From positions 1 through 37,379 of the IMG/VR virus record IMGVR_UViG_3300028394_000010: a DNA stretch of 37,379 bases, one strand, 5' to 3'. A program made the position numbers and the translations under genes. The stretch is from a virus. Positions 2,064 to 35,822 of the stretch are shown piece after piece (the first letter of the stretch is position 1; each line of letters begins with the position of its first letter). The notes below the pieces were generated by a model. That model had not been told where the DNA came from and did no database searches. It saw nothing but the letters and a program-made list of their open reading frames with translations.

Positions 2064-4234
2064 TGGCTGACTACACTGGTATTAACGCTGTTGGCAACGT
2101 CGCACTGGGTGGCAAACCACTCAAGAGCGACTCAGATGTGTTGTCAACAGCGCGAGATCGCCTGTCGATGGCAATCTCGGCGTACTCTGAGAGTCGAGAG
2201 GATGAGCTAGACGACCTGCGGTTTTACGCAGGTAGCCCTGATAACCAGTGGCAATGGCCGGCAGATGTGCTGGCGACCCGTGGTGCGGTGCAGGGTCAGA
2301 CGATTAACGCTCGGCCATGCTTGACAATTAACAAGCTACCGCAGCACGTACATCAGATTACCAACGATCAGCGCCAGAATCGGCCTAGTGTCAAGGTCAT
2401 TCCGGTTGATGACAACGCGGACGTTGAGGTCGCCGAGATTTTCAACGGCATGATTCGGCATATCGAGTACATCTCGGATGCAGATGTGGCCTACGATACT
2501 GCTTGCGAGAACCAAGTTGCGTATGGCGAAGGTTATATTCGGATTCTGACCGAGTATTGCGACGACGATACGTTTGACCAAGACATCAAGATTGCGCGGG
2601 TTCGCAATAGTTTCTCGGTCTACATGGACCCGCTGATTCAGGACCCATGCGGCAGTGATGCCGAGTGGTGTTTTATCACTGAGGACTTGTCTAAAGCCGA
2701 ATACGCGCGGTTGTTTCCTAACGCATCTCCACTCTCTACGCTTGAGACGCTGGGTGTAGGGGATCAGAACCTGAGCCAGTGGCTAAATACCGATACGATT
2801 CGTATTGCTGAGTATTTTTATTGCGAATACGACACGCAGACGTTGAATTTGTATCCTGGTAATGTGACTGCGTTCCAAGGAACGCCGGAAGACAAAGAGT
2901 TGCGGGCGGTTTACGGCAAACCGAAGAAGTCGCGCCAAGCGGATCGCAAGAAGATTTGCTGGACAAAGATTAACGGCTACGAAATCCTTGAAAAGCAGGA
3001 ATGGGCCGGTAGTTGCATCCCTGTTGTGCGGGTGATTGGCAACGAATACGAGGTTGAGGGTCGGATTTACATTAGTGGGTTGGTGCGTAACGCCAAAGAT
3101 GCACAACGGATGTACAATTATTGGACTAGCCAAGAGGCAGAAATGCTGGCGCTGGCTCCAAAGGCCCCGTTTATTGGTTATGGCGGTCAGTTTGAGGGGT
3201 ACGAGACCCAGTGGAAGACCGCAAACACAAATAACTGGCCTTATTTGGAGGTCAACCCGGACGTAACGGACGGTCAAGGCGCGATATTGCCGCTGCCCCA
3301 ACGGGCGCAGCCGCCAATGGCGTCATCTGGCCTGTTGCAAGCTAAAGTTGGTGCTTCCGAGGACATCAAGTCTGCTACGGGGCAGTACAACGCCTCGTTG
3401 GGCATGACATCTAACGAGCGTTCTGGCAGAGCTATTCTGGCCCGCCAGCGTGAGGGTGATGTTGGTACTTACCACTACCAAGACAACCTAGCACGGGCTG
3501 TACGGTACGTTGGTCGCCAGTTGGTGGACATGATCCCCAAAATTTACGACACGCAGCGCATTGCCAGAATCATTGGGTTGGACGGCGAGACGAAGATGGT
3601 CAAGATTGACCCGACTCAGGCCGAACCAGTGCGTAAGATCCAGAATCAAGAAGGAATTGTGATTGATAAGATCTACAATCCTTCGGTTGGCAAGTACGAC
3701 GTAGTGGTTGCAACGGGTCCGGGGTACGCCACTAAGCGTCAAGAGGCACTTGAGGCGATGGCGCAGCTACTGCAAGGTAACCCGCAATTGTGGGCGGTGG
3801 CTGGCGATCTGTTCGTTAAGAACATGGACTGGCCTGGGGCGCAGGAAATGGCAAAGCGGTTTGCCAAGACGATTGATCCCAAGCTCATGGGTGATGCCGA
3901 GGATAATCCAGCTTTGCAAGCAGCACAGCAGCAGATGCAAGCGATGGCGGCAGAATTGGATCAGTTGCACAATATGCTGCAAAATGTCGGCAAGTCTATG
4001 GAAGCGCAGGACATGGAGCGCAAGGACTTTGAGGCGCAGATTAAAGCGTACCAAGCTGAGACGCAACGTATTAGCGCTGTTCAGGCGGGTATGTCCGAAG
4101 AGCAGATCCAAGACATTGCAATGGGCGTGGTCGCTGCGGCTATTGAGTCTCAGAACCTTATGAATCAAATGCCTGAAATGCGTGAGGAATCCATGCCGAT
4201 GGAAATGATGCCTTCTGAAGGGATGATGCAATGA
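2063..4234 (+). CDS. Portal protein, P22 type
   Basis: Dodecameric DNA channel at the capsid vertex and docking point for terminase and tail. The 723-aa length matches P22-like portals. The N-terminal third (DRLSMAISAYSESREDELDD, then LRFYAGSPDNQW, LTINKLPQHVHQITNDQRQN) and NSFSVYMDP are typical of the P22 portal family. The C-terminal about 100 residues are a Gln/Met-rich coiled coil (helical-barrel-like), ending in a Met-rich tail. A GTG at 2057 is in frame, but ATG 2063 has GGAAG five bases upstream and overlaps the previous stop as TGATG, so 2063 is chosen. The gene ends in an ATGA overlap with the next one. Confidence 0.95.
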   Translation: MADYTGINAVGNVALGGKPLKSDSDVLSTARDRLSMAISAYSESREDELDDLRFYAGSPDNQWQWPADVLATRGAVQGQTINARPCLTINKLPQHVHQITNDQRQNRPSVKVIPVDDNADVEVAEIFNGMIRHIEYISDADVAYDTACENQVAYGEGYIRILTEYCDDDTFDQDIKIARVRNSFSVYMDPLIQDPCGSDAEWCFITEDLSKAEYARLFPNASPLSTLETLGVGDQNLSQWLNTDTIRIAEYFYCEYDTQTLNLYPGNVTAFQGTPEDKELRAVYGKPKKSRQADRKKICWTKINGYEILEKQEWAGSCIPVVRVIGNEYEVEGRIYISGLVRNAKDAQRMYNYWTSQEAEMLALAPKAPFIGYGGQFEGYETQWKTANTNNWPYLEVNPDVTDGQGAILPLPQRAQPPMASSGLLQAKVGASEDIKSATGQYNASLGMTSNERSGRAILARQREGDVGTYHYQDNLARAVRYVGRQLVDMIPKIYDTQRIARIIGLDGETKMVKIDPTQAEPVRKIQNQEGIVIDKIYNPSVGKYDVVVATGPGYATKRQEALEAMAQLLQGNPQLWAVAGDLFVKNMDWPGAQEMAKRFAKTIDPKLMGDAEDNPALQAAQQQMQAMAAELDQLHNMLQNVGKSMEAQDMERKDFEAQIKAYQAETQRISAVQAGMSEEQIQDIAMGVVAAAIESQNLMNQMPEMREESMPMEMMPSEGMMQ

Positions 4235-10221: not shown

Positions 10222-10971
10222 ATGGCCGATACTAAAATTTCCGCTCTTACGGCGGCGACAACTCCTCTGGCGGGGACAGAAGTACTGCCAATTGTTCAAT
10301 CTGGAGCTACGGTTAAAGTCGCAAACAATGATTTGCGCCCAAAACAAATTCAATCAAATGCAACTAGCGGTGTGTTGCAAGTTGCCGGACCTACTGCTGC
10401 TGCGACCCGCGTAATGACGACGCCAGACGCAAATTTTACGGTGGCTCGCACTGATGCGGCACAATCGTTTACTGGCAATCAAACATTAAGTACCGGCAAC
10501 TTGGTTATTGGCACTTCGGGCGGAGGCGTCGACTTTTCTGCCACACCGGGCACCGGCACAAGCGAGTTGCTGGCTGACTATGAAGAAGGCACTTTTACCC
10601 CGCAATTGTTTTTTGGTGCTACTGAAATATCGGTATATAACGCACAAGCAGGCTGGTATACAAAAGTAGGCAACACAGTGTATTTCACAGTGTTTATTCA
10701 AGTGCAGCAAAAAGGCGCTGGAACTGGTGCGGTTACTGTTCGTAATTTACCATTTACCTCTCAATCTTCAAATGACCACAAGTATTCTTTTAGCGTTACA
10801 GGTCAAAGTTTGACGTTGCTTACTGGCGCATTGTTTGGTGTCATGGATCAAAACACAACGCAAGTTGGTATTTTTCAGACTGACTCAACAGGCGGCGTTG
10901 CATTAACTGATGCGGCATTTACCACATTCAGTAACGACAACGTAATCGTCACTGGCACATATCAAGTCTAA
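10222..10971 (+). CDS. Fibre protein
   Basis: 249 aa. The N-terminus MADTKISALTAATTPLAGTE followed by VLPIVQSGATVKVANNDL is a widely shared phage fibre start. A middle segment (DYEEGTFTPQLFFG, AGWYTKVGNTVYFTVFIQ) matches beta domains often found at fibre C-termini. No enzyme motif is visible. It carries a strong ribosome site (AAGGA, six bases). It lies between the head-binding protein and the beta-helix tailspike and is likely part of the same appendage. Confidence 0.75.
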   Translation: MADTKISALTAATTPLAGTEVLPIVQSGATVKVANNDLRPKQIQSNATSGVLQVAGPTAAATRVMTTPDANFTVARTDAAQSFTGNQTLSTGNLVIGTSGGGVDFSATPGTGTSELLADYEEGTFTPQLFFGATEISVYNAQAGWYTKVGNTVYFTVFIQVQQKGAGTGAVTVRNLPFTSQSSNDHKYSFSVTGQSLTLLTGALFGVMDQNTTQVGIFQTDSTGGVALTDAAFTTFSNDNVIVTGTYQV

Positions 10972-10979
10972 GGATTATT

Positions 10980-12695
10980 ATGGCGCTCACTAAAGCTAGC
11001 TACTCAATGGTAAGCGGAACGCCAATCAGCGTTCTGGATTACGGTGCTGACCCAACAGGCGCTGCAAACAGCACTGCTGCATTTCAACTTGCCGTAAATG
11101 AGGCTATTTCCCGCGCTGCATCATTGGCTGCTGGGGGTTCGGTAATTGACCCTACTTTTGTAGCAACACCAAATGTTGTTATCCATTTTCCAAGTGGTAA
11201 ATATTTACTCTCAGACGCAACTGGCGTAGATATTCCACCACAAGCTGGAAGTGCTTTAGTCCAGGCGTGTATCACTTTTTCCTCGGATGAGGGCGGTGCC
11301 ACTATTGTTGGAAATGTTACAAATATAGGGTTTAACTTTACTGGTGGTGGATACAGAAACAAGTTTTCAAATATTTTATTTGCAAAGTTTGGAACTGCTA
11401 TTCGCTTTGACACAAACAATAAAAACGAGTCATTTTTACAGATTGACTCTTGCCGTTCGCAGAGTAATGACATTTTTATTGATACTGTAAGTTATGCAGA
11501 ATCTCGGTCAACAATGATTGACATCCGCAATACTTATTGCGATGACACCCGAGTTTTTGTAAAGCATTACACCGATCACATGACAATTCGTGATTGCTGG
11601 ATGTACGCCAAAAAAGACTCTTACGATGCGCTTTTGTACTTGTCAGGCGATGGTAATGTCAATCTCTACGACAACTTCATGATTCCGTTTGGTTCTCAAA
11701 TTCCAAACCCTCAGAACGCTCGTTGGATTGACTTTGTTTCTGAAAGTGCCCAAAGCACAATGACAGATCGAAGCGTTAAATTTCTAAACATCCGTGGTTG
11801 CCGAATGTCTTTAGAAAGCGCACGACCGTTTATTTGGACGTATTCAAACACACCCCCCGGCCCACCCAATGCCATATCTTCAATCACGATTGAAGACAGC
11901 TACATTGGCGGCACTGGCGGCGCGTCCGTCATCACTTACAAAACGGGATACCCTGGCAGCGTCAATCTTAAAAACTGCAAGGTTCTTTCTGCTCCGTTGA
12001 TTGTCAGCGTTGATGCAGGCAATACAACCTACCCAGAACCAAGTGTTGCAATTGGTGGAGGTGGGTTTTTAACCTATCACACAATCATGGTAGATGAAGC
12101 AACTCGCCTTTCTCAAAATAACAGCTTCACGATCAATCTTGGAAACTTGATTGACCCCAATCTGATGCCATTTTATGTGGACACCACCACACAAACGTCT
12201 AAATACAAGACAACTTTTCCTTGGGAAGTTCCTTCCGACTATCGGATGCGTGCTGAAACAAACACAGGAACAACTGTCAAAACATCGTTCCCAATTTTCT
12301 TTGACTACAACCCGGCGGTTGCCAATAGAGACATTTGCTCTTTCATTCTTGTGACGGTAGGCAATGGAAACAGCGCGTTGTCAACATATCGGGCGCAGTC
12401 TACGTGCTTGGTGACAATCGTCGGTGGATTTACAGCTTCTGCTGAAAAAAGAATCATCACCACTGTTTTGCAAAACGCGCAAGGCGGCATCGCATACGCG
12501 ATTTCCGCAAATCCAACTGTGACTTGGAATGCAACAGGTACAGACACAATAGCTTTTGCAGGTTCTGGAACAACACAGGAGACAATCGATATGGTGTGGA
12601 ACTCGACAAGCGCGAGTGTTTCTTGGGCTTACATCATTCCGTTGTCCGGCATAAGGCCAAATCAACCATCTCTGCAACAATTTAACGTCTGGTAA
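10980..12695 (+). CDS. Tailspike with pectate-lyase-like beta-helix
   Basis: The 571-aa product starts with an adaptor (MALTKASYSMVSGTPISVLD) and the classic entry to a right-handed beta-helix (YGADPTGAANSTAAFQLAVN), as in Pectate_lyase_3 tailspikes. Aromatic/Asn-rich rungs follow through about residue 380, then a C-terminal beta domain. Such spikes bind and often cut host surface polysaccharide; the catalytic residues cannot be located by eye. The gene is AT-richer than the replication region, as expected for exchanged host-range genes. AAGGA five bases before ATG. Confidence 0.85.
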   Translation: MALTKASYSMVSGTPISVLDYGADPTGAANSTAAFQLAVNEAISRAASLAAGGSVIDPTFVATPNVVIHFPSGKYLLSDATGVDIPPQAGSALVQACITFSSDEGGATIVGNVTNIGFNFTGGGYRNKFSNILFAKFGTAIRFDTNNKNESFLQIDSCRSQSNDIFIDTVSYAESRSTMIDIRNTYCDDTRVFVKHYTDHMTIRDCWMYAKKDSYDALLYLSGDGNVNLYDNFMIPFGSQIPNPQNARWIDFVSESAQSTMTDRSVKFLNIRGCRMSLESARPFIWTYSNTPPGPPNAISSITIEDSYIGGTGGASVITYKTGYPGSVNLKNCKVLSAPLIVSVDAGNTTYPEPSVAIGGGGFLTYHTIMVDEATRLSQNNSFTINLGNLIDPNLMPFYVDTTTQTSKYKTTFPWEVPSDYRMRAETNTGTTVKTSFPIFFDYNPAVANRDICSFILVTVGNGNSALSTYRAQSTCLVTIVGGFTASAEKRIITTVLQNAQGGIAYAISANPTVTWNATGTDTIAFAGSGTTQETIDMVWNSTSASVSWAYIIPLSGIRPNQPSLQQFNVW

Positions 12696-12705
12696 AGGAG
12701 TCATC

Positions 12706-12993
12706 ATGGCACTTAGGCAAACAATCACAAAAACCTGTCCTTCAATTGCTTTGTTTGATGGGGTAAAAGTTGAATCTAATCCTGTTACTGTTTCAGATGT
12801 TTTTTACATTAAGGTTGAGGCAGTCACTGGAACAAAAGAAAAAGCAAATTGTTCTGTTTCTTTTACAGGTGAAAAAATTAAAATTCAAAAAATGTTTGAG
12901 TTCACCCCGTCAATGATGGCTGGAAACTTTATCGCGCAAGCATACGCGCACTTAAAAACCCTGCCAGAATTCGCTAGCGCAACTGACTGCTAA
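12706..12993 (+). CDS. Hypothetical protein, 95 aa
   Basis: This 95-aa protein begins MALRQTITKTCPSIALFDGV and shares its MAL.. opening with the spike before it. It contains alternating beta-like stretches and a C-terminal MMAGNFIAQAYAHLKTLPEF. Codons are markedly AT-rich. It has a very strong ribosome site (AAAGGAG, five bases). No family is recognised. Similar-size partner proteins beside spikes can be decoration or assembly factors, but nothing in the sequence proves it. Confidence 0.6.
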   Translation: MALRQTITKTCPSIALFDGVKVESNPVTVSDVFYIKVEAVTGTKEKANCSVSFTGEKIKIQKMFEFTPSMMAGNFIAQAYAHLKTLPEFASATDC

Positions 12994-13005
12994 AAAGGAA
13001 ATATC

Positions 13006-13257
13006 ATGACTCTCGAAAAAATCATCTCTGTTGATCTGATTGAAATTGTCGAATCTGGCATTATTCAAGTCCGTACCAAGACCGCCATTAAAGAAGATGG
13101 CGTTGAGATCAGCAGCAACTTTCACCGCCACGTTGTCGTGCCCGGTGCTGACGTAAGTGGTGAAGATGCCAAAGTGCAAGCTATTGCTGCATCTATCCAC
13201 ACTGCTGAAGTTGTTGAAGCATATAGACTTGCACAACTTGACAAAACCCTTGCATAA
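13006..13257 (+). CDS. Hypothetical protein, 83 aa
   Basis: This 83-aa acidic protein contains KIISVDLIEIVESGIIQVRT, a VEISSNFHRHVVVPGADVSG centre and a helical C-terminus. The SNFHRHVVVPG motif is familiar from small phage structural genes that follow tail-fibre genes, but I know no assigned function. AAAAGG site eight bases before ATG. It is the last gene of the adhesin island before the scaffold. Confidence 0.65.
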   Translation: MTLEKIISVDLIEIVESGIIQVRTKTAIKEDGVEISSNFHRHVVVPGADVSGEDAKVQAIAASIHTAEVVEAYRLAQLDKTLA

Positions 13258-13299
13258 TACTGTACCGGCCCAGCAGACCGGGGAATCTTAGGATTCAAA

Positions 13300-14037
13300 A
13301 TGTCGGAAGAAGTAGCGATTGAAGCGGAAGTAGCGCCCGCGCCGGAACTGGAAGCCACGGCGGCCCCGGAACCTGTAGTAGATACGCCGGAAGTTGCGCC
13401 CAAGACATTCTCGCAAGAGGAACTTGATGCCGCGATTCAAAAACGTCTCGCAAGAGAACAGCGAAAGTGGGAGCGTGAGCGTCAAGCACCGCCGCCCGTT
13501 GCCGTTGATGTCCCGCCCGTAGATCAGTTTGATTCGGTCGATGCTTACGCAGAAGCCAAAGCAATCAAGCTAATCGAGCAGCGAGAACAGCATCGTCAAC
13601 AGACGGAGATTCTTGAGGCATACCACGAACGTGAGGAAGAGGCTCGGTCCAAATACGATGACTTTGAACAAGTTGCGTACAACCCAACCCTCAAAATCAC
13701 GACCGTGATGGCGCAAGCGATTCAAGCCTCTGATGCTGGCCCTGATGTAGCTTACTACCTCGGGTCCAATCCAAAAGAGACAGATCGCATTTCCCGTCTT
13801 AGCCCGATCTTGCAAGCAAAGGAGATTGGACGCATTGAGGCTAAAATAGCCAACGATGTCCCGGTCAAACGTACTACGTCCGCGCCCGCACCGATTAGTC
13901 CGGTAACTGCCAGAACTTCAGGCAATCCGAGTTACGACACGACGGACCCCCGGTCCACCAAAACGATGTCTGCCTCGGAATGGATTGAAGCAGAACGGCT
14001 GCGCCAGACTAAGAAATGGCAAGCTCAGAATCGCTAA
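13300..14037 (+). CDS. Scaffolding protein (putative)
   Basis: 245 aa. An acidic Ala/Pro/Glu-rich N-terminus precedes a helix with KTFSQEELDAAIQKRLAREQ (about residues 44-63) and a long charged helical middle. A Pro/Thr linker leads to a basic C-terminal helix (ASEWIEAERLRQTKKWQAQN) that would bind coat protein. Immediate placement before the coat gene and the helix-linker-basic-helix layout match P22-type scaffolds. AGGA six bases before ATG. Assignment is by position and composition rather than strong sequence identity. Confidence 0.85.
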   Translation: MSEEVAIEAEVAPAPELEATAAPEPVVDTPEVAPKTFSQEELDAAIQKRLAREQRKWERERQAPPPVAVDVPPVDQFDSVDAYAEAKAIKLIEQREQHRQQTEILEAYHEREEEARSKYDDFEQVAYNPTLKITTVMAQAIQASDAGPDVAYYLGSNPKETDRISRLSPILQAKEIGRIEAKIANDVPVKRTTSAPAPISPVTARTSGNPSYDTTDPRSTKTMSASEWIEAERLRQTKKWQAQNR

Positions 14038-30624: not shown

Positions 30625-32481
30625 GTGATCCTGTGGGTTGACTTCGAAACCCGTAGCACCTGCGACCTTCGGGTCGCGGGTGTCTATAACTACGCGCAGG
30701 ACTTGGAAACCGAAGTCATCTGTATGTCCTACGCTTTCGACGACGGGCCTGTTAAAACTTGGACGCCAGATTTAACATTTCCCGTCGATGTGTTAAACCA
30801 CAAAGGTCAGATCCGCGCGCATAACGCCGCGTTTGAGCGTCTGATCTTCTGGTACGTGCTTCAGATCAACTTCGATCTTAAGCAGTTCTATTGCACCGCA
30901 ACACAAGCCCGCGCTAACTGCGCGCCGGGGTCGCTTGAGGACGTCGGTCGCTTTGCGGGCGCTGACATGAAGAAAGACCGCCGGGGCGATTACCTTGTGC
31001 GGCAATGCTGCGTGCCGCCGTATAACGACAAGCTCATCCCAGAACTCATAGAGTACTGCGAGCAGGATGTGCGCGCTATGCGCGCCGTGAGTCTCGCTCT
31101 GCGTGAACTGTCGGATGAGGAGTTGCTCGACTATCACGTCAACGAGCGCATAAACGACCGAGGCGTGAAGGTGGACGTTGCGCTATGCAAGGCCGCTATC
31201 CGCTACGCTGACGCCGAACTAGCTGAGATACAAGCGATTGTGACCGAGATCACGGGCGGTCTAGCCGTGCGCTCGCCACGTATGCGCGAGTGGGTGCTGG
31301 CGCGCGTTTCGGATGAGCAGAAGAAGCTCATGTGGGTCGGTGAGAAGTACAGCATCGACAAGGCCGTTCGCGCTAATCTATTAGCGTGTGATGATTTAGA
31401 CCCAGATGTGCGCGAGGTGGTGCAATGCGCGGACGATCTATGGGCGTCCTCGATTGCAAAGTTTAAACGTCTACAGGAGTTGGCTGATGTTGAAGATGAC
31501 CGAGTACGAGGCGCATTTGTTTTTGCTGGCGGATCTGCGACGGGGCGAGCCTCTTCTTACGGAGCACAGGTCCACAATTTCACCCGCAAGACCGCCAAAG
31601 ATCCGGCTGGAGTCCGTGACGATATGGTCGCCGGTCGAGCAATTGTCCCTCTTCACGGACGAAGAGTTACAGATGTGCTCAAGGGGATGCTTAGACCCGC
31701 GCTCGTTGGTAATTTCGTAGTCGCCGACTGGTCGGCTATCGAGGCGCGCGTCAACCCGTGGCTGTCGGGCATGGGCGAGGAGAAGCTCAAGCAGTTCGAC
31801 CAAGACATCTATAAGATCAACGCCGCTGCGACCTTCGGATGCTCGGTCGATCAGGTGACCGACGATCAGCGTCAGATCGGCAAGGTTCAGGAACTTAGTT
31901 GCGGCTATGCGGGCGGCGTAGGCGCGTTTGCTGCGATGGGTCGGGCCTATGGTATTCATCTGCCAGAGGCCGATGCCAAGCGCATGGTAGACGCTTGGCG
32001 ACGGTCTAATCAGTGGGCCGTGCGGTTCTGGTCGGAGTTGGAGCGGGCTTACACGTCGGCCATGCACACGCCTAACGCCGAGTTCAGCGCGGGGCGTGTG
32101 ACTTATTTATTTGATCGGCAGCATCTCTGGTACATTCTTCCTTCGGGCCGCGTTCTGTGTTACCCGTTCGCCAAACTGGAAGAAGATGGCATTTCATACT
32201 GTAAAGCCGCTTGGAAGCCCGCCGCTGACGCTAAAGAGTGGCCGCGCGCTAGATTATGGAAGGGATTGGCTTGCGAGAACATCACGCAAGCAGTCGCCAA
32301 TGATGTGCTGCGCTACGCGCTACGTCAGTTAGATAACGTAGTGCTCCACGTACACGACGAGATCGTCCTTGAGGACGGAGACCCGGACCTATTGCGCCGC
32401 GTCATGTGTACGTCGCCGCCGTGGGCGGCAGGACTGCCCCTAAAGGCAGAAGTTAAGCAAATGACCCGTTACGGTAAGTAA
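30625..32481 (+). CDS. DNA polymerase, family A
   Basis: 618 aa with GTG start immediately after the previous stop. Proofreading exonuclease: D6/E8 in VDFETRS, HNAAFER at 66-72, YCEQDV at 144-149 (D148). Polymerase: motif A DWSAIEAR (D368), motif B region RQIGKVQELSCGYAGG (R416, K420), motif C VHDEI (H577, D578, E579). In exo II the usual Asp is Glu (E71), a change I have seen in related phage enzymes. It is the replicative enzyme, partnered here with a primase-helicase and a sliding clamp encoded nearby. Confidence 0.95.
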   Translation: MILWVDFETRSTCDLRVAGVYNYAQDLETEVICMSYAFDDGPVKTWTPDLTFPVDVLNHKGQIRAHNAAFERLIFWYVLQINFDLKQFYCTATQARANCAPGSLEDVGRFAGADMKKDRRGDYLVRQCCVPPYNDKLIPELIEYCEQDVRAMRAVSLALRELSDEELLDYHVNERINDRGVKVDVALCKAAIRYADAELAEIQAIVTEITGGLAVRSPRMREWVLARVSDEQKKLMWVGEKYSIDKAVRANLLACDDLDPDVREVVQCADDLWASSIAKFKRLQELADVEDDRVRGAFVFAGGSATGRASSYGAQVHNFTRKTAKDPAGVRDDMVAGRAIVPLHGRRVTDVLKGMLRPALVGNFVVADWSAIEARVNPWLSGMGEEKLKQFDQDIYKINAAATFGCSVDQVTDDQRQIGKVQELSCGYAGGVGAFAAMGRAYGIHLPEADAKRMVDAWRRSNQWAVRFWSELERAYTSAMHTPNAEFSAGRVTYLFDRQHLWYILPSGRVLCYPFAKLEEDGISYCKAAWKPAADAKEWPRARLWKGLACENITQAVANDVLRYALRQLDNVVLHVHDEIVLEDGDPDLLRRVMCTSPPWAAGLPLKAEVKQMTRYGK

Positions 32482-32545: not shown

Positions 32546-34798
32546 ATGGAACTGGTGGATCATATCATAGCCCTCGCGCCTGAGGGTGAAGTAGTTTTAT
32601 TCACTAAACAAGTCGAGCGCGAGGGCGGGTACGCTTACCCTGCGTTTCGTAAGCCGCGCGGTGAGGGCGCTTGGTACGTCAACATCGGCTCGTTCATCGA
32701 GTCGCGCTTTGACGGCCAGCGGGTCAGCGCGGGTGCTGCGTTCTGTGAGAACGTGTGGTGCTTGGTTCTAGATGACGTCGGTACGAAGTCGAAAACGCCT
32801 ACGATTCGCCCGACGTGGATCATTGAAACGTCGAAGGACAACTTTCAGTGGTGTTACGTATTCCGGCTAGACGATCAGCCCCACAAATCCGTCTATAGCG
32901 CGGCGATCAAGGCCATAGCAGCGGCGGGTTATACGGACCCCGGCGCTATCAATCCGGTCCGCAATATACGCATTCCCGGCTCGATCAATCTAAAGCCCGG
33001 GCGCGACCGTTTCGCCGCGCGCTTGGTTGAGTTCAACCCGTCGCGCGAGTTTAGTCTTGAAGAGATCTGCGGCGCTCTGTCGGTCGTCCCCGGCGCGGTC
33101 GAGACCACAACATTCCGTCCGGGTGTCCTAAAGGATGACGGGTCGGATGACGTTCTAGCGTGGCTTGTCGAGCGTAAGGAAGTCACACAAAAAGGCAATT
33201 CTGCGGGCTGGTGGGGCGTGATCTGCCCTAACAGCGCGGAACACTCAGACGGCAACCCAGAGGGCCGCTATATGCCCGCTTCGCGGGCGTATTGTTGTCT
33301 GCACTCGCATTGCACCGAGTGGGACTCCGCGCGGTTTCTAGCTTGGGTCGAGCAGGAGGGTGGGCCTAAACGGACCTATGGCCTACGTGACGAGCTTTTA
33401 GCGTCAGTCGTGAACGGCGCGTTGTCTAAGCTAACGCCTACGGAGATGTTTACAGATGACGCTAAAGCCGTGATCGCCCAGGTTGAGGCGCGTGAGCGGG
33501 CGCGGGTCGAGCGGTCGGATTGGTTCAAACGCTTCGCCTATGTGCAGTCGGACGACGCCTACTTCGACCTAGTTGACCGTGTGCTTATATCGCGTCGGGC
33601 GTTCGACGCGACCTATCGCGGGATCATGTGTCATTCGATGCACAATAACGGCGGCAAGGCCCGCATCATTAACCCGTCCCTATGGTTCGATGAGAACCGA
33701 ACGGCCGCTGGCGGCCACATCCTGGCGGGCTTGACCTATGCGGCCGGTGAGTCGGTTCTAGCCGTGCGGGACAATCTACCCTATGCGAACCGTTGGGTCG
33801 ACGCGCGGCCGACGCCTATGGCGGGGCCTATACAGGCATGGATCGACCATTGCCGCAAGCTCGTCCCAGTACAGTCGGAGCTAGACCATGTCTGGGACGT
33901 TATGGCCTATAAAGTGCAGAACCCGCGTGTGAAGATCAACCATGCAATCCTTCATGCGTCGGATGAGGGATCGGGTAAGGATACGATGTATGACCCGTTC
34001 ATCTGGGCCGTCTGCGGGGACAATAAGCATAATTTAGGGTTAGTCGACAATGAATCGCTCACGTCCCAATGGGGCTATCAACTAGAGTCGGAGATTCTAG
34101 TTATCAACGAGCTAAAAGAGGCCCTCGCGGCTGATAGGCGCGTCTTGGCCAATAAACTCAAGCCTATCATCGCGGCCCCGCCTGAGGTTCTAGCCGTGAA
34201 CAGGAAAGGATTGCATCCATATATGATGGCAAACCGGGGTTTCGTGCTCGCATTTTCTAACGACCTATTGCCTATTAGCATCAGCGCCCAGGATCGCCGT
34301 TGGTTCTGTATTTGGTCGCACGTGGGCCGCATGAGCGATTCTGACGGGGCCGCGATATGGCAATGGCTGAGAACGGGCGGGCGGGCGGCCGTAGCGGCTT
34401 GGTTGCACGCGCGCGACGTCTCGCGCTTCAATCCTGGGGCCGCTCCGCCTATGACGGAATTTAAACAAACTATGACTGAGAATTCGTTATCGGGCGCGGA
34501 GAGTTATATCCTTGAATTGATGAAGCATCGAAAGGGTGTTTTCACGCGTGGCGTAATCGCGGCCCCGTTACAGGCCGTTTTGGACGATCTAGCGCGTAGC
34601 GCGCCCGCTGGCTTGAAACTGTATCAGCAAGCGTTATTGCAAGCGATCAAGGAAGCCGGGTGGATCGACTGTGGGCGCGTCGCTGCGCGCGGGTTAGAAT
34701 CGAAGCGACACGTGTATTGCGCGCCCGATCTAGCGGCCGTGGGCGCGTCCACGCTGCGTCGGATGGTAGAGCCGGACTATCAACCGAACCCGCAATGA
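32546..34798 (+). CDS. Primase-helicase (AEP-like plus SF3/DUF5906)
   Basis: 750 aa. N-terminal RepB/AEP-like primase features: LVLDDVG (D76 D77), WIIETSKDNFQWCYVF, NPVRNIRIPGSIN. A Cys/His cluster follows (C227, H233, C250, C251, H253, C256) as in primase Zn sites. C-terminal superfamily 3 helicase: Walker A DEGSGKDT (473-480), Walker B ILVINE (517-522), sensor Asn N572 in LAFSND, arginine pair DRRW (583-586). A single chain would unwind and prime for the family A polymerase. AGGAG before ATG. The stop overlaps a hairpin. Confidence 0.9.
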   Translation: MELVDHIIALAPEGEVVLFTKQVEREGGYAYPAFRKPRGEGAWYVNIGSFIESRFDGQRVSAGAAFCENVWCLVLDDVGTKSKTPTIRPTWIIETSKDNFQWCYVFRLDDQPHKSVYSAAIKAIAAAGYTDPGAINPVRNIRIPGSINLKPGRDRFAARLVEFNPSREFSLEEICGALSVVPGAVETTTFRPGVLKDDGSDDVLAWLVERKEVTQKGNSAGWWGVICPNSAEHSDGNPEGRYMPASRAYCCLHSHCTEWDSARFLAWVEQEGGPKRTYGLRDELLASVVNGALSKLTPTEMFTDDAKAVIAQVEARERARVERSDWFKRFAYVQSDDAYFDLVDRVLISRRAFDATYRGIMCHSMHNNGGKARIINPSLWFDENRTAAGGHILAGLTYAAGESVLAVRDNLPYANRWVDARPTPMAGPIQAWIDHCRKLVPVQSELDHVWDVMAYKVQNPRVKINHAILHASDEGSGKDTMYDPFIWAVCGDNKHNLGLVDNESLTSQWGYQLESEILVINELKEALAADRRVLANKLKPIIAAPPEVLAVNRKGLHPYMMANRGFVLAFSNDLLPISISAQDRRWFCIWSHVGRMSDSDGAAIWQWLRTGGRAAVAAWLHARDVSRFNPGAAPPMTEFKQTMTENSLSGAESYILELMKHRKGVFTRGVIAAPLQAVLDDLARSAPAGLKLYQQALLQAIKEAGWIDCGRVAARGLESKRHVYCAPDLAAVGASTLRRMVEPDYQPNPQ

Positions 34799-34881: not shown

Positions 34882-34970
34882 AATGCGCCGATTAGAGCTT
34901 CAAACAGTATGATTGTGGTAACGACAATCCAACCAATAAGCGCGCCTGTTGCGAGGGTTTCGAGTTTCAT
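34872..34970 (-). CDS. 32-aa single-pass membrane peptide
   Basis: ATG 34970 overlaps the previous stop (ATGA) and has GGAG seven bases upstream. Product MKLETLATGALIGWIVVTTI then ILFEALIGALCR: one membrane helix. Size and coupling support a real small gene; the role (superinfection exclusion, host membrane effect or none) is unknown. Confidence 0.55.
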   Translation of the reverse strand: MKLETLATGALIGWIVVTTIILFEALIGALCR

Positions 34971-35212
34971 TGTGCGCTCCGCTTTTTTGGCAAGCATACG
35001 AACACGGTCGACCCATCGGGTAAGTCGCCTGACGCTAATTCAAAATCCCAGCCGAGCTTGTCAAGTAACGCGCGCGCAGCCTTTTCGTGGCGCTCATATA
35101 GATTTAGTTCGTGCGGGAAAGGGATTGTGACGTTACCAGCGCTGGCGCTTGCCTTGATACGCGCGCCCTTAATATTGGTTGGTCCGATATATTTAGTGAC
35201 GATTGCTTGCAT
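34967..35212 (-). CDS. 81-aa conserved phage protein
   Basis: ATG 35212 is chosen because GAGGA lies seven bases upstream; the frame is open further to 35254. Sequence MQAIVTKYIGPTNIKGARIK, then AARALLDKLGWDFELASGDL and STVFVCLPKK. I recall the YIGPTN.KG.RIKA opening from many phages and plasmids of Proteobacteria; no function known. The start lies 10 bases downstream of the clamp gene stop. Confidence 0.75.
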   Translation of the reverse strand: MQAIVTKYIGPTNIKGARIKASASAGNVTIPFPHELNLYERHEKAARALLDKLGWDFELASGDLPDGSTVFVCLPKKRSAQ

Positions 35213-35222
35213 GATGTTTTCC

Positions 35223-35822
35223 TCAGAATGTTTCGAGTGTCCAGGCGGGCGCAACGTAGGCGGTCAACCCTTCCGGATCACGATAGGGCATCAGGCATCC
35301 AAAAAAGTCAGGTTCCTGGAGCGTAACGGCCGCGCATGACGTCCCGTTATGCCAGATTTTAGGGGCCCATGTTTTCCCGAATAACTTGTTAGCGGCCGCA
35401 AACTTTGCCAATACGGCCGGGTTTATCTGAGCGGGTTCTCCTGAGCATTTTTGCGGGATAACGCGCGGAATATCGGGAAACTTGCCGTCGACGGCCGCCC
35501 ATCCAATTGTCATGCCACCCACTACGCTAATCGTACCCTTCAACCCGTCGTCAGTTTCGATGACGGCCGCGTCGAGTTTATTCTTGGCCGGTTTGAGCAT
35601 TTTGATGACGTCGAACGGTAGCAGAATCGTTACCTTGTCGCTGACTTCGTTTTCCGCGCGCAGTGTGCGGTGAATGCCCAAGCAATGCCCGTCAGTCGCG
35701 GTTAAGATTGTGCGGTTTTGATCCGCTTCGACCCGAACCGTGTTCAGATAATAGCGAATATCTTGATCAGCGCTGAATTGTGAAATTGCGCGCAGCGCTG
35801 AAAGTTTGACGTTGATTTTCAT
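35223..35822 (-). CDS. Short beta-type sliding clamp (two domains)
   Basis: 199 aa. SQFSADQDIRYYLNTVRVEA and LTATDGHCLGIHR match domain 2 of bacterial DnaN; AVDGKFPDIPRVIP matches the end of domain 2 (E. coli LVDGRFPDYRRVLP). FFGCLMPYR corresponds to the C-terminal VVMPMR of domain 3, but about 18 residues follow it. Nothing corresponding to domain 1 is present (DnaN is about 366 aa). It would serve as processivity factor for the family A polymerase, probably as a trimer to keep six domains in the ring (inference). No clear ribosome site before its ATG. Confidence 0.85.
   Translation of the reverse strand: MKINVKLSALRAISQFSADQDIRYYLNTVRVEADQNRTILTATDGHCLGIHRTLRAENEVSDKVTILLPFDVIKMLKPAKNKLDAAVIETDDGLKGTISVVGGMTIGWAAVDGKFPDIPRVIPQKCSGEPAQINPAVLAKFAAANKLFGKTWAPKIWHNGTSCAAVTLQEPDFFGCLMPYRDPEGLTAYVAPAWTLETF

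Follow-up and report, generated by a model that had tools for sequence, protein, structure and literature searches.

The mini-clamp gene and its surroundings

The window, i.e., the whole 37,379-nucleotide stretch of viral DNA that was analyzed, carries on its minus strand a short gene for a relative of the bacterial sliding clamp DnaN, here called the mini-clamp. The following genes are relevant.

35223–35822, minus strand: mini-clamp gene (199 amino acids plus stop codon), defined by its open reading frame (ORF), Pfam, an AlphaFold model, fold superposition and half-domain profiles
34967–35212, minus strand: PHROG 3199 gene, function not known, with its ATG 10 nt past the mini-clamp stop codon and a GAGGA-like ribosome site
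30625–32481, plus strand: family A DNA polymerase (PolA) of the phage, from profile matches; context gene
32546–34798, plus strand: primase/helicase-like protein (DUF5906), with a weak RepB-primase match under cut-off; context gene

The mini-clamp ORF starts with ATG, whereas the plus-strand frame of 35223–35822 is broken by several stop codons. A TAA codon lies in frame immediately 5′ of the ATG, so the mini-clamp has no N-terminal extension. The dN/dS ratio was 0.05–0.19 against five relatives, which indicates purifying selection and, together with the in-frame TAA, that the ORF is a real and complete gene. The PHROG 3199 gene is probably co-transcribed with it. A PADLOC search of two proteins gave no match. 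A perfect clamp-binding motif, QLSLF, was observed in a 104-residue open frame (31406–31720, plus strand) that overlaps the PolA gene out of frame; this occurrence is probably due to chance.

A DnaN derivative of one and a half domains

The sole Pfam match of the window protein was to the central domain of DnaN (PF02767, residues 16–117, 2e-9, 38.2 bits, cut-off 27). Beta clamps matched it at 4e-9 among PDB sequences, the family profile matched it at 2.5e-28, and the DnaN motifs cited in the first-pass annotation, which had proposed a beta-type clamp relative, are present. The NCBIfam DnaN model TIGR00663 scored 34.3 bits, far under its cut-off of 137.65. All 43 members of alignment set A4 matched DNA_pol3_beta_2 (E up to 0.1). 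Matches of distant members were weaker: the Eta protein had no Pfam match at 0.01, and those of EP23, Rb1, and TC7 were under cut-off; Eta, EP23, and Rb1 weakly matched TIGR00663 and TC7 weakly matched PF02767. The mini-clamp descends from bacterial DnaN. The resemblance as such was already known, as the deposited labels "DNA Pol III b subunit fragment" and "putative beta-clamp protein" indicate.

A full DnaN has three domains in ~366 residues. The 82 full-length DnaN proteins used here (two from phages and 80 bacterial, i.e., E. coli K-12 plus 79 of 80 loci, with mostly Gammaproteobacteria in the titles) were cut into six half-domains, and the profiles were compared by hhalign, whose single-template E-values are uncalibrated. 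The window protein was resolved into the following parts, all on the minus strand.

35652–35822: DnaN half-domain 2A, residues 1–57 (hhalign 99.3%)
35457–35651: DnaN half-domain 2B, residues 58–122, ending in DGKFPD..RVI (hhalign 97.95%)
35277–35453: DnaN half-domain 3B, residues 124–182 (hhalign 96.7%), with 3A absent at the 2B/3B junction
35226–35276: C-terminal tail past the DnaN end, residues 183–199, with "PAW" (alignment and model)

The third part matched 3A at 0.05%, and the highest other pairing was 4.97% (2A against 1A). In an alignment with full-length phage clamps (L030, 349 residues; L031, 379 residues), the short proteins began at domain 2 and jumped from the RVIP boundary to the latter half of domain 3; in the Eta branch, the sequence past this jump reads IGFN..Y ... 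VVMPMRL.

The AlphaFold (AF2) model, built for the window protein from 43 sequences (pLDDT 92.9, pTM 0.88), contains two beta-alpha-beta-beta-beta units and a third unit of one helix and three strands; the first strand of this third unit was left unassigned by DSSP. Residues 1–182 of the model superposed on residues 126–366 of the E. coli clamp (6fvl_D) with Z 16.5 and rmsd 2.5 Å over 173 aligned residues. The best superposition was on 6ap4_B (Z 17.9, rmsd 2.6 Å, 173 aligned), and that on 1jql_A gave Z 14.2 and rmsd 2.6 Å, again with 173 aligned. The model of the Serratia phage Eta branch (31 sequences, pLDDT 94.7) has the same build with a 2B half lacking its helix, and superposed on 7evp_A with Z 14.3 and rmsd 2.5 Å over 166 residues.

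The mini-clamp thus consists of one and a half domains (2A, 2B, and 3B), with domain 1 and half-domain 3A missing. That domain 1 is lacking, as first annotated, was borne out by the TAA before the ATG and by half-domain profiles that begin at 2A. The description of the protein as "domains 2 and 3" holds for domain 2 and the second half of domain 3 and fails for 3A. It had also been placed in the size class of the two-domain clamps T4 gp45 and PCNA, which, according to PMC4858162, assemble as homotrimers from protomers with two clamp repeats each. The mini-clamp has three half-domain units instead of two complete clamp domains and is like these proteins in length only; the 50 structural matches listed for the window model are bacterial clamps, with neither gp45 nor PCNA among them, although these may rank below the listed ones.

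In the first full-length MAFFT alignment, the last helix of most mini-clamps was placed on the 3A helix (occupancy of 0.97–0.98 at E. coli positions 261–280, columns that include I272 and L273), and Y323 was left empty. This placement was rejected, as the half-domain profiles and alignment A2 put the helix on 3B, with its IGFN..Y motif. The helix most probably belongs to 3B, with residual doubt for that helix. The last strands with MPxR are 3B, and E298–E304 were absent in the first MAFFT alignment also. The N-terminal clamp domain PF00712 gave weak matches in 3 of 43 A4 members (best 0.0016); the match in L071 was dismissed as a cross-match, as it lay under cut-off and covered residues 26–91, the same stretch as the central-domain match of that protein.

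Mean pLDDT in the tail region was 69 for residues 181–190 and 88 for residues 191–199. Tails resembling that of the window protein recur in part of the family, and among the 40 post-MPxR tails of at least 8 residues, P.W, P..W, or DTSW was observed in 22 (e.g., L038, L048, L058, L068). A tail of the P.W type may cover the surface bared by the loss of 3A.

The RusA-like label

The window protein matched PHROG 3007, labeled RusA-like, at 1.3e-29 (residues 1–182 on 1–186 of 190), and many family members are annotated in phage records, like PHROG 3007 itself, as "RusA-like Holliday junction resolvase". RusA was absent among the ten families listed for the 43 A4 members, all of which matched the clamp domain, and the window protein had no match to RusA (PF05866). 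In Bcep781, PF05866 is matched by a separate protein, gp22 (1e-16), whereas gp15 matches the clamp. We consider it next to impossible that the mini-clamp is a RusA-like resolvase, and on these profile matches the RusA label of PHROG 3007 is judged to be wrong.

Family size and origin

Searches with tblastn returned 201 phage records for the window protein (165 at 80% coverage) and 264 for the Eta protein (E ≤ 1e-5), 260 of them at 80% coverage; these records include some full-length clamps, such as L030 and L031. In IMG/VR, 453 relatives were found for one query and at least 510 for a second. From these, the best 80 of 453 (full-length clamps possibly included) and 80 of at least 510 were sampled, 30 of the latter being extracted. 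The 124 proteins analyzed comprised 81 family ORFs, these 30, 12 from named phages, and the window protein, and 68 of them were kept at <75% identity. Loci L014, L019, L020, L021, and L028 were outside the 124-protein set; BcepC6B was inside it as L092, before thinning.

The 81 ORFs encode 183–257 residues, with start codons chosen mostly as the nearest upstream ATG. The frame stayed open for at least 40 codons further upstream in 7 of 111 cases (154 codons in L082, 42 in L095–L099, and 41 in L150), and the extended frames in L082 and L095 revealed no second clamp domain. For BcepC6B (L014), the deposited start of gp31 at locus position 13079 lies too far downstream; the alignment favors a start close to the GTG at 12992 (gene 12992–13594). 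A member is also encoded by the cultured E. coli phage Bas79 (Bas79_0040). Short clamp relatives annotated as hypothetical were also observed in prophage-like stretches of plasmids from Salmonella (L269, 3983–4549, 188 residues) and Klebsiella (L270, 2983–3546, 187 residues).

In the tree, a branch (100/98) separated the 68 mini-clamps from five full-length clamps, the only ones included; L023, L026, and L186 formed long branches. This topology is consistent with a single origin of the mini-clamps. Bcep781 gp15, Serratia phage Eta Eta_0010, BcepC6B gp31, and Shigella phage EP23 EP23p08 belong to the same family and share the 1.5-domain build. The window sub-branch differs from these in having a tail beyond the DnaN end and PolA in the phage.

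Ring contacts are lost and the peptide pocket is kept

The dimer contacts of the E. coli clamp, as given in PMC11139829, are I78, F106, K74, R96, R103, and R105 on the domain 1 side and I272, L273, E298, E300, E301, E303, and E304 on the 3A side. All 13 of these published residues belong to domain 1 or 3A, the parts absent from the mini-clamps, which therefore have no interface of domain 1 with 3A (one helix being ambiguous in the first MAFFT alignment). The peptide pocket, as given in PMC11139829, is formed by R152, L155, T172, G174–L177, P242, R246, V247, N320, Y323, V344, V360, and M362–R365. All 18 of these positions fall in 2A, at the end of 2B, or in 3B, i.e., in the parts that are kept.

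Among the 68 non-redundant mini-clamps, conservation was 3.20 bits at the 18 pocket positions and 1.73 bits at the 143 other alignable positions, and identity to E. coli was 75% in the pocket compared to 21% elsewhere. None of 20,000 random position sets was as high by either measure; as the positions are not independent, this is a ranking and not an exact probability. R152 and P242 were kept in all 68 proteins, L155 and G174 in 66, M362 and P363 in 64, T172 in 63, H175, R246, and R365 in 60, V247 in 56, N320 and Y323 in 45, and V360 in 41. Variable positions were R176 (27/68), L177 (30/68), M364 (31/68), and V344 (0/68), the last of which is also variable in DnaN. Eleven of the 25 best-conserved positions belong to the pocket, 13 lie within five residues of a pocket position, and only I194 lies elsewhere.

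The window protein is identical to E. coli at 13 of the 18 pocket positions and differs at 5. In 2A, its R23, L26, T43, G45, H46, and L48 correspond to R152, L155, T172, G174, H175, and L177, and C47 stands where E. coli has R176. The remaining identical residues are P116, R120, and V121 in 2B and N134, M178, P179, and R181 in 3B. As judged from this conservation, the mini-clamps appear to retain the DnaN peptide pocket at the 2A/3B junction, although its conservation could instead serve the folding of this junction.

Because the dimer contact joins 3A with 1B and the pocket junction joins 2A with 3B, inter-domain contacts of the clamp pair each A half with the B half that follows. The one A half of the mini-clamp touches both of its B halves, which leaves none free, and on the published residue lists a canonical head-to-tail ring would thus lack a partner face. 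A canonical ring or a gp45-like trimer of mini-clamps is therefore unlikely. That trimerization would restore a ring of six domains cannot be concluded from the build, as the published ring-closing residues fall in the missing parts.

Charge of the channel-facing helices

Outside the pocket, most of the basic residues of DnaN domain 2 were lost; PMC11139829 yielded no statement on which of these residues contact DNA. Lys or Arg was present at R197 in 11, at K198 in 13, and at K235 in 12 of the 68 mini-clamps, and an acidic residue was found instead at K198 in 29 and at K235 in 18 of them. Basic pocket residues were mostly kept as Lys or Arg (R152 68/68, R246 65/68, R365 61/68), but R176 only in 32/68. 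The summed net charge of the three helix cores was 0.78 in DnaN, 2.47 in the mini-clamps, and 6 in the window protein. The gain came mainly from 3B (p 2e-10) and to a smaller degree from 2B (p 0.006), with none in 2A (p 0.5), the p values being uncorrected for kinship. All three helices gained charge when insertions were counted, and the shared part as a whole went from a net charge of −5.9 in DnaN to +1.4 in the mini-clamps. The loss of the non-pocket basic residues of domain 2 argues against a simple retention of DNA contact. The ordinary contact of the DnaN channel with DNA thus seems not to be conserved; a direct contact of mini-clamps with DNA through another residue pattern is possible.

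Replication genes and neighbors in carrier phages

The first-pass annotation had paired the clamp with a family A polymerase. PolA does lie nearby in the window, yet the pairing is not characteristic of the family, as a PolA match was found in 19 of the 55 carrier records (two of them, W12 and G031, being EP23) and none in 36. A function of the mini-clamp as an accessory of PolA is weakened by these 36 records. No family B polymerase (PF00136) and no phrog_17 polymerase was found in the 36 records without PolA, and neither the family C polymerase DnaE (PF07733) nor the clamp-loader subunit PF13177 was found in 40 records that include these 36. Records from IMG/VR may be incomplete; among the 36, 12 come from named phages and were searched over their full length (TC7 being deposited as a partial genome). 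Many carrier phages therefore appear, from their gene content, to use the host replicase.

In several carriers, the mini-clamp gene has neighbors with roles in DNA metabolism. In BcepC6B, these are PolA and an endonuclease; in Gungnir39, a primase, a helicase, and a nuclease; and in Rb1, "recombination-dependent growth factor C" and SSB. In Hafnia phage yong1, the gene lies between cII and a Phage_rep_org_N gene, which is followed by a "DNA replication protein". A polymerase exonuclease subunit is the neighbor in L071, a member of the "recombination-associated exonuclease" family in L082, and PolA lies directly upstream in L173. The genes adjoining the mini-clamp in L023 (recombination-dependent growth factor C, 2988–3947) and L082 (recombination-associated exonuclease, 10579–11550) are RdgC-like by a reading of their labels. 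In Bcep781, the mini-clamp gene stands alone and opposite to the surrounding structural genes, and in EP23 it stands with one other gene.

Clamp-binding motifs were scanned for in greedy ORF calls on locus stretches, not on whole genomes. No clear excess was found in phage ORFs near the mini-clamp gene, with 20 matches observed and 15.65 in shuffled sequences (45 loci). Single matches were QLALF (L082), QLGLF (L173), and QLSLF in a 695-residue ORF of Bcep781 annotated as portal protein. The sole match in the window was QIELL, in an SNF2-like helicase; the clamp-binding peptide suggested for the window PolA (30625–32481) did not materialize, as no in-frame match to the two patterns scanned was found there. 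The absence of a motif excess is compatible with partners outside the phage. A non-canonical phage partner, beyond the reach of motif scanning, is also possible.

Proposed working and alternative explanations

We propose, with a probability of roughly 55%, that the mini-clamp is a ringless DnaN derivative that works without a loader and whose pocket holds the motif of a client, probably one of the host, with tethering as the first choice of use. It would probably be monomeric, or would at least not form a closed ring of the DnaN type, and would need no clamp loader. The ligand of the pocket at the 2A/3B junction would be a short clamp-binding motif, most likely from a host protein of replication or repair. 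The retention of the pocket without the ring parts, together with the many phages that apparently depend on the host replicase, suggests a capture of host clamp clients. As a tether or recruiter, the mini-clamp would touch phage DNA with a basic helix face and keep the host enzyme in its pocket, by analogy with herpesvirus UL42, which PMC9690074 describes as monomeric and loader-free, with a basic helix on DNA and the polymerase on the outer sheet. The likeness to UL42 would lie in this proposed working principle; the mini-clamp derives from DnaN, and the hint of its DNA contact consists of mixed charge indications. The fuller statement that phages cut the sliding clamp down to its peptide pocket and use it as a ringless, loader-free, UL42-like tether of the host replicase or another client on phage DNA, partly mislabeled as a resolvase, is put forward tentatively.

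The same conservation of the pocket would also be expected of a decoy that captures host clamp clients and blocks the host replicase. According to PMC11139829, the binding of E. coli delta to a monomeric mutant of the clamp is ~50-fold stronger than that to the dimer, and this mutant is unable to tether Pol III, both of which would suit a decoy, as would the isolated position of the gene in Bcep781 and its position with one other gene in EP23, which may be typical of moron-like genes. Against it, the gene of yong1 (W05) lies amid replication genes in a phage with no detected family A, B, or C polymerase, to which a block of the host replicase would be harmful, and other members are near replication or recombination genes. 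Tether and decoy both fit, and the evidence separates them poorly. Tethering is preferred on account of the basic face and the replication-gene neighborhoods, and a decoy is regarded as possible but doubtful. It is very improbable that the mini-clamp joins the host clamp, docking on or replacing part of a DnaN monomer to give a hybrid or an opened ring. Its 2B face, which is kept, would be the counterpart of the 1B face, the partner of 3A in the dimer (PMC11139829), but no second conserved interface is evident, as only I194 among the 25 most conserved positions lies away from the pocket.

A true ring-forming clamp for a phage polymerase, either a trimer with two domains per subunit or a tetramer with 1.5, is very improbable. 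The mini-clamp is a real DnaN relative with PolA nearby in the window phage, and four copies could supply the twelve beta-alpha-beta units that a ring of six domains contains. However, 3A and domain 1, which bear the interface residues published in PMC11139829, are missing, and on these grounds the ring or trimer reading was rejected; a like-with-like canonical contact would, on the residue lists, find no free A face, the Eta model lacks the 2B helix, no loader was found in 40 records, and 36 of 55 carriers have no PolA match.

Relation to known clamps and significance

The mini-clamp shares with E. coli DnaN the half-domains 2A, 2B, and 3B, the peptide pocket, and a superposable fold, and differs from it in lacking domain 1, 3A, and the dimer interface and in a helix face that is on average more basic. 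The E. coli clamp mutant I272A/L273A (PDB 1JQL) is likewise ring-incompetent with its pocket kept, and binds delta tightly (PMC11139829), but it is a laboratory point mutant of the full three-domain protein.

Among the matches listed from open-licence PMC titles and abstract starts, we found no DnaN fragment family of this build, no mention of a lost ring matched with a kept pocket, and none of a wrong RusA label of PHROG 3007. To judge from these matches, the 2A-2B-3B build, the loss of ring contacts against the retention of the pocket, and the mislabeling of PHROG 3007 appear to be new. Many phage genes would accordingly receive a corrected label, from RusA-like to clamp-derived.

The clamp pocket is the site targeted by antibiotics such as griselimycin, and the mini-clamp may be a compact natural binder of clamp-binding motifs. 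Mini-clamps offer a natural tool for studying pocket function without topological linkage. Sliding clamps are thought to work as rings, and a large phage family that keeps the pocket but lacks the ring parts suggests that the pocket alone can be under strong selection.
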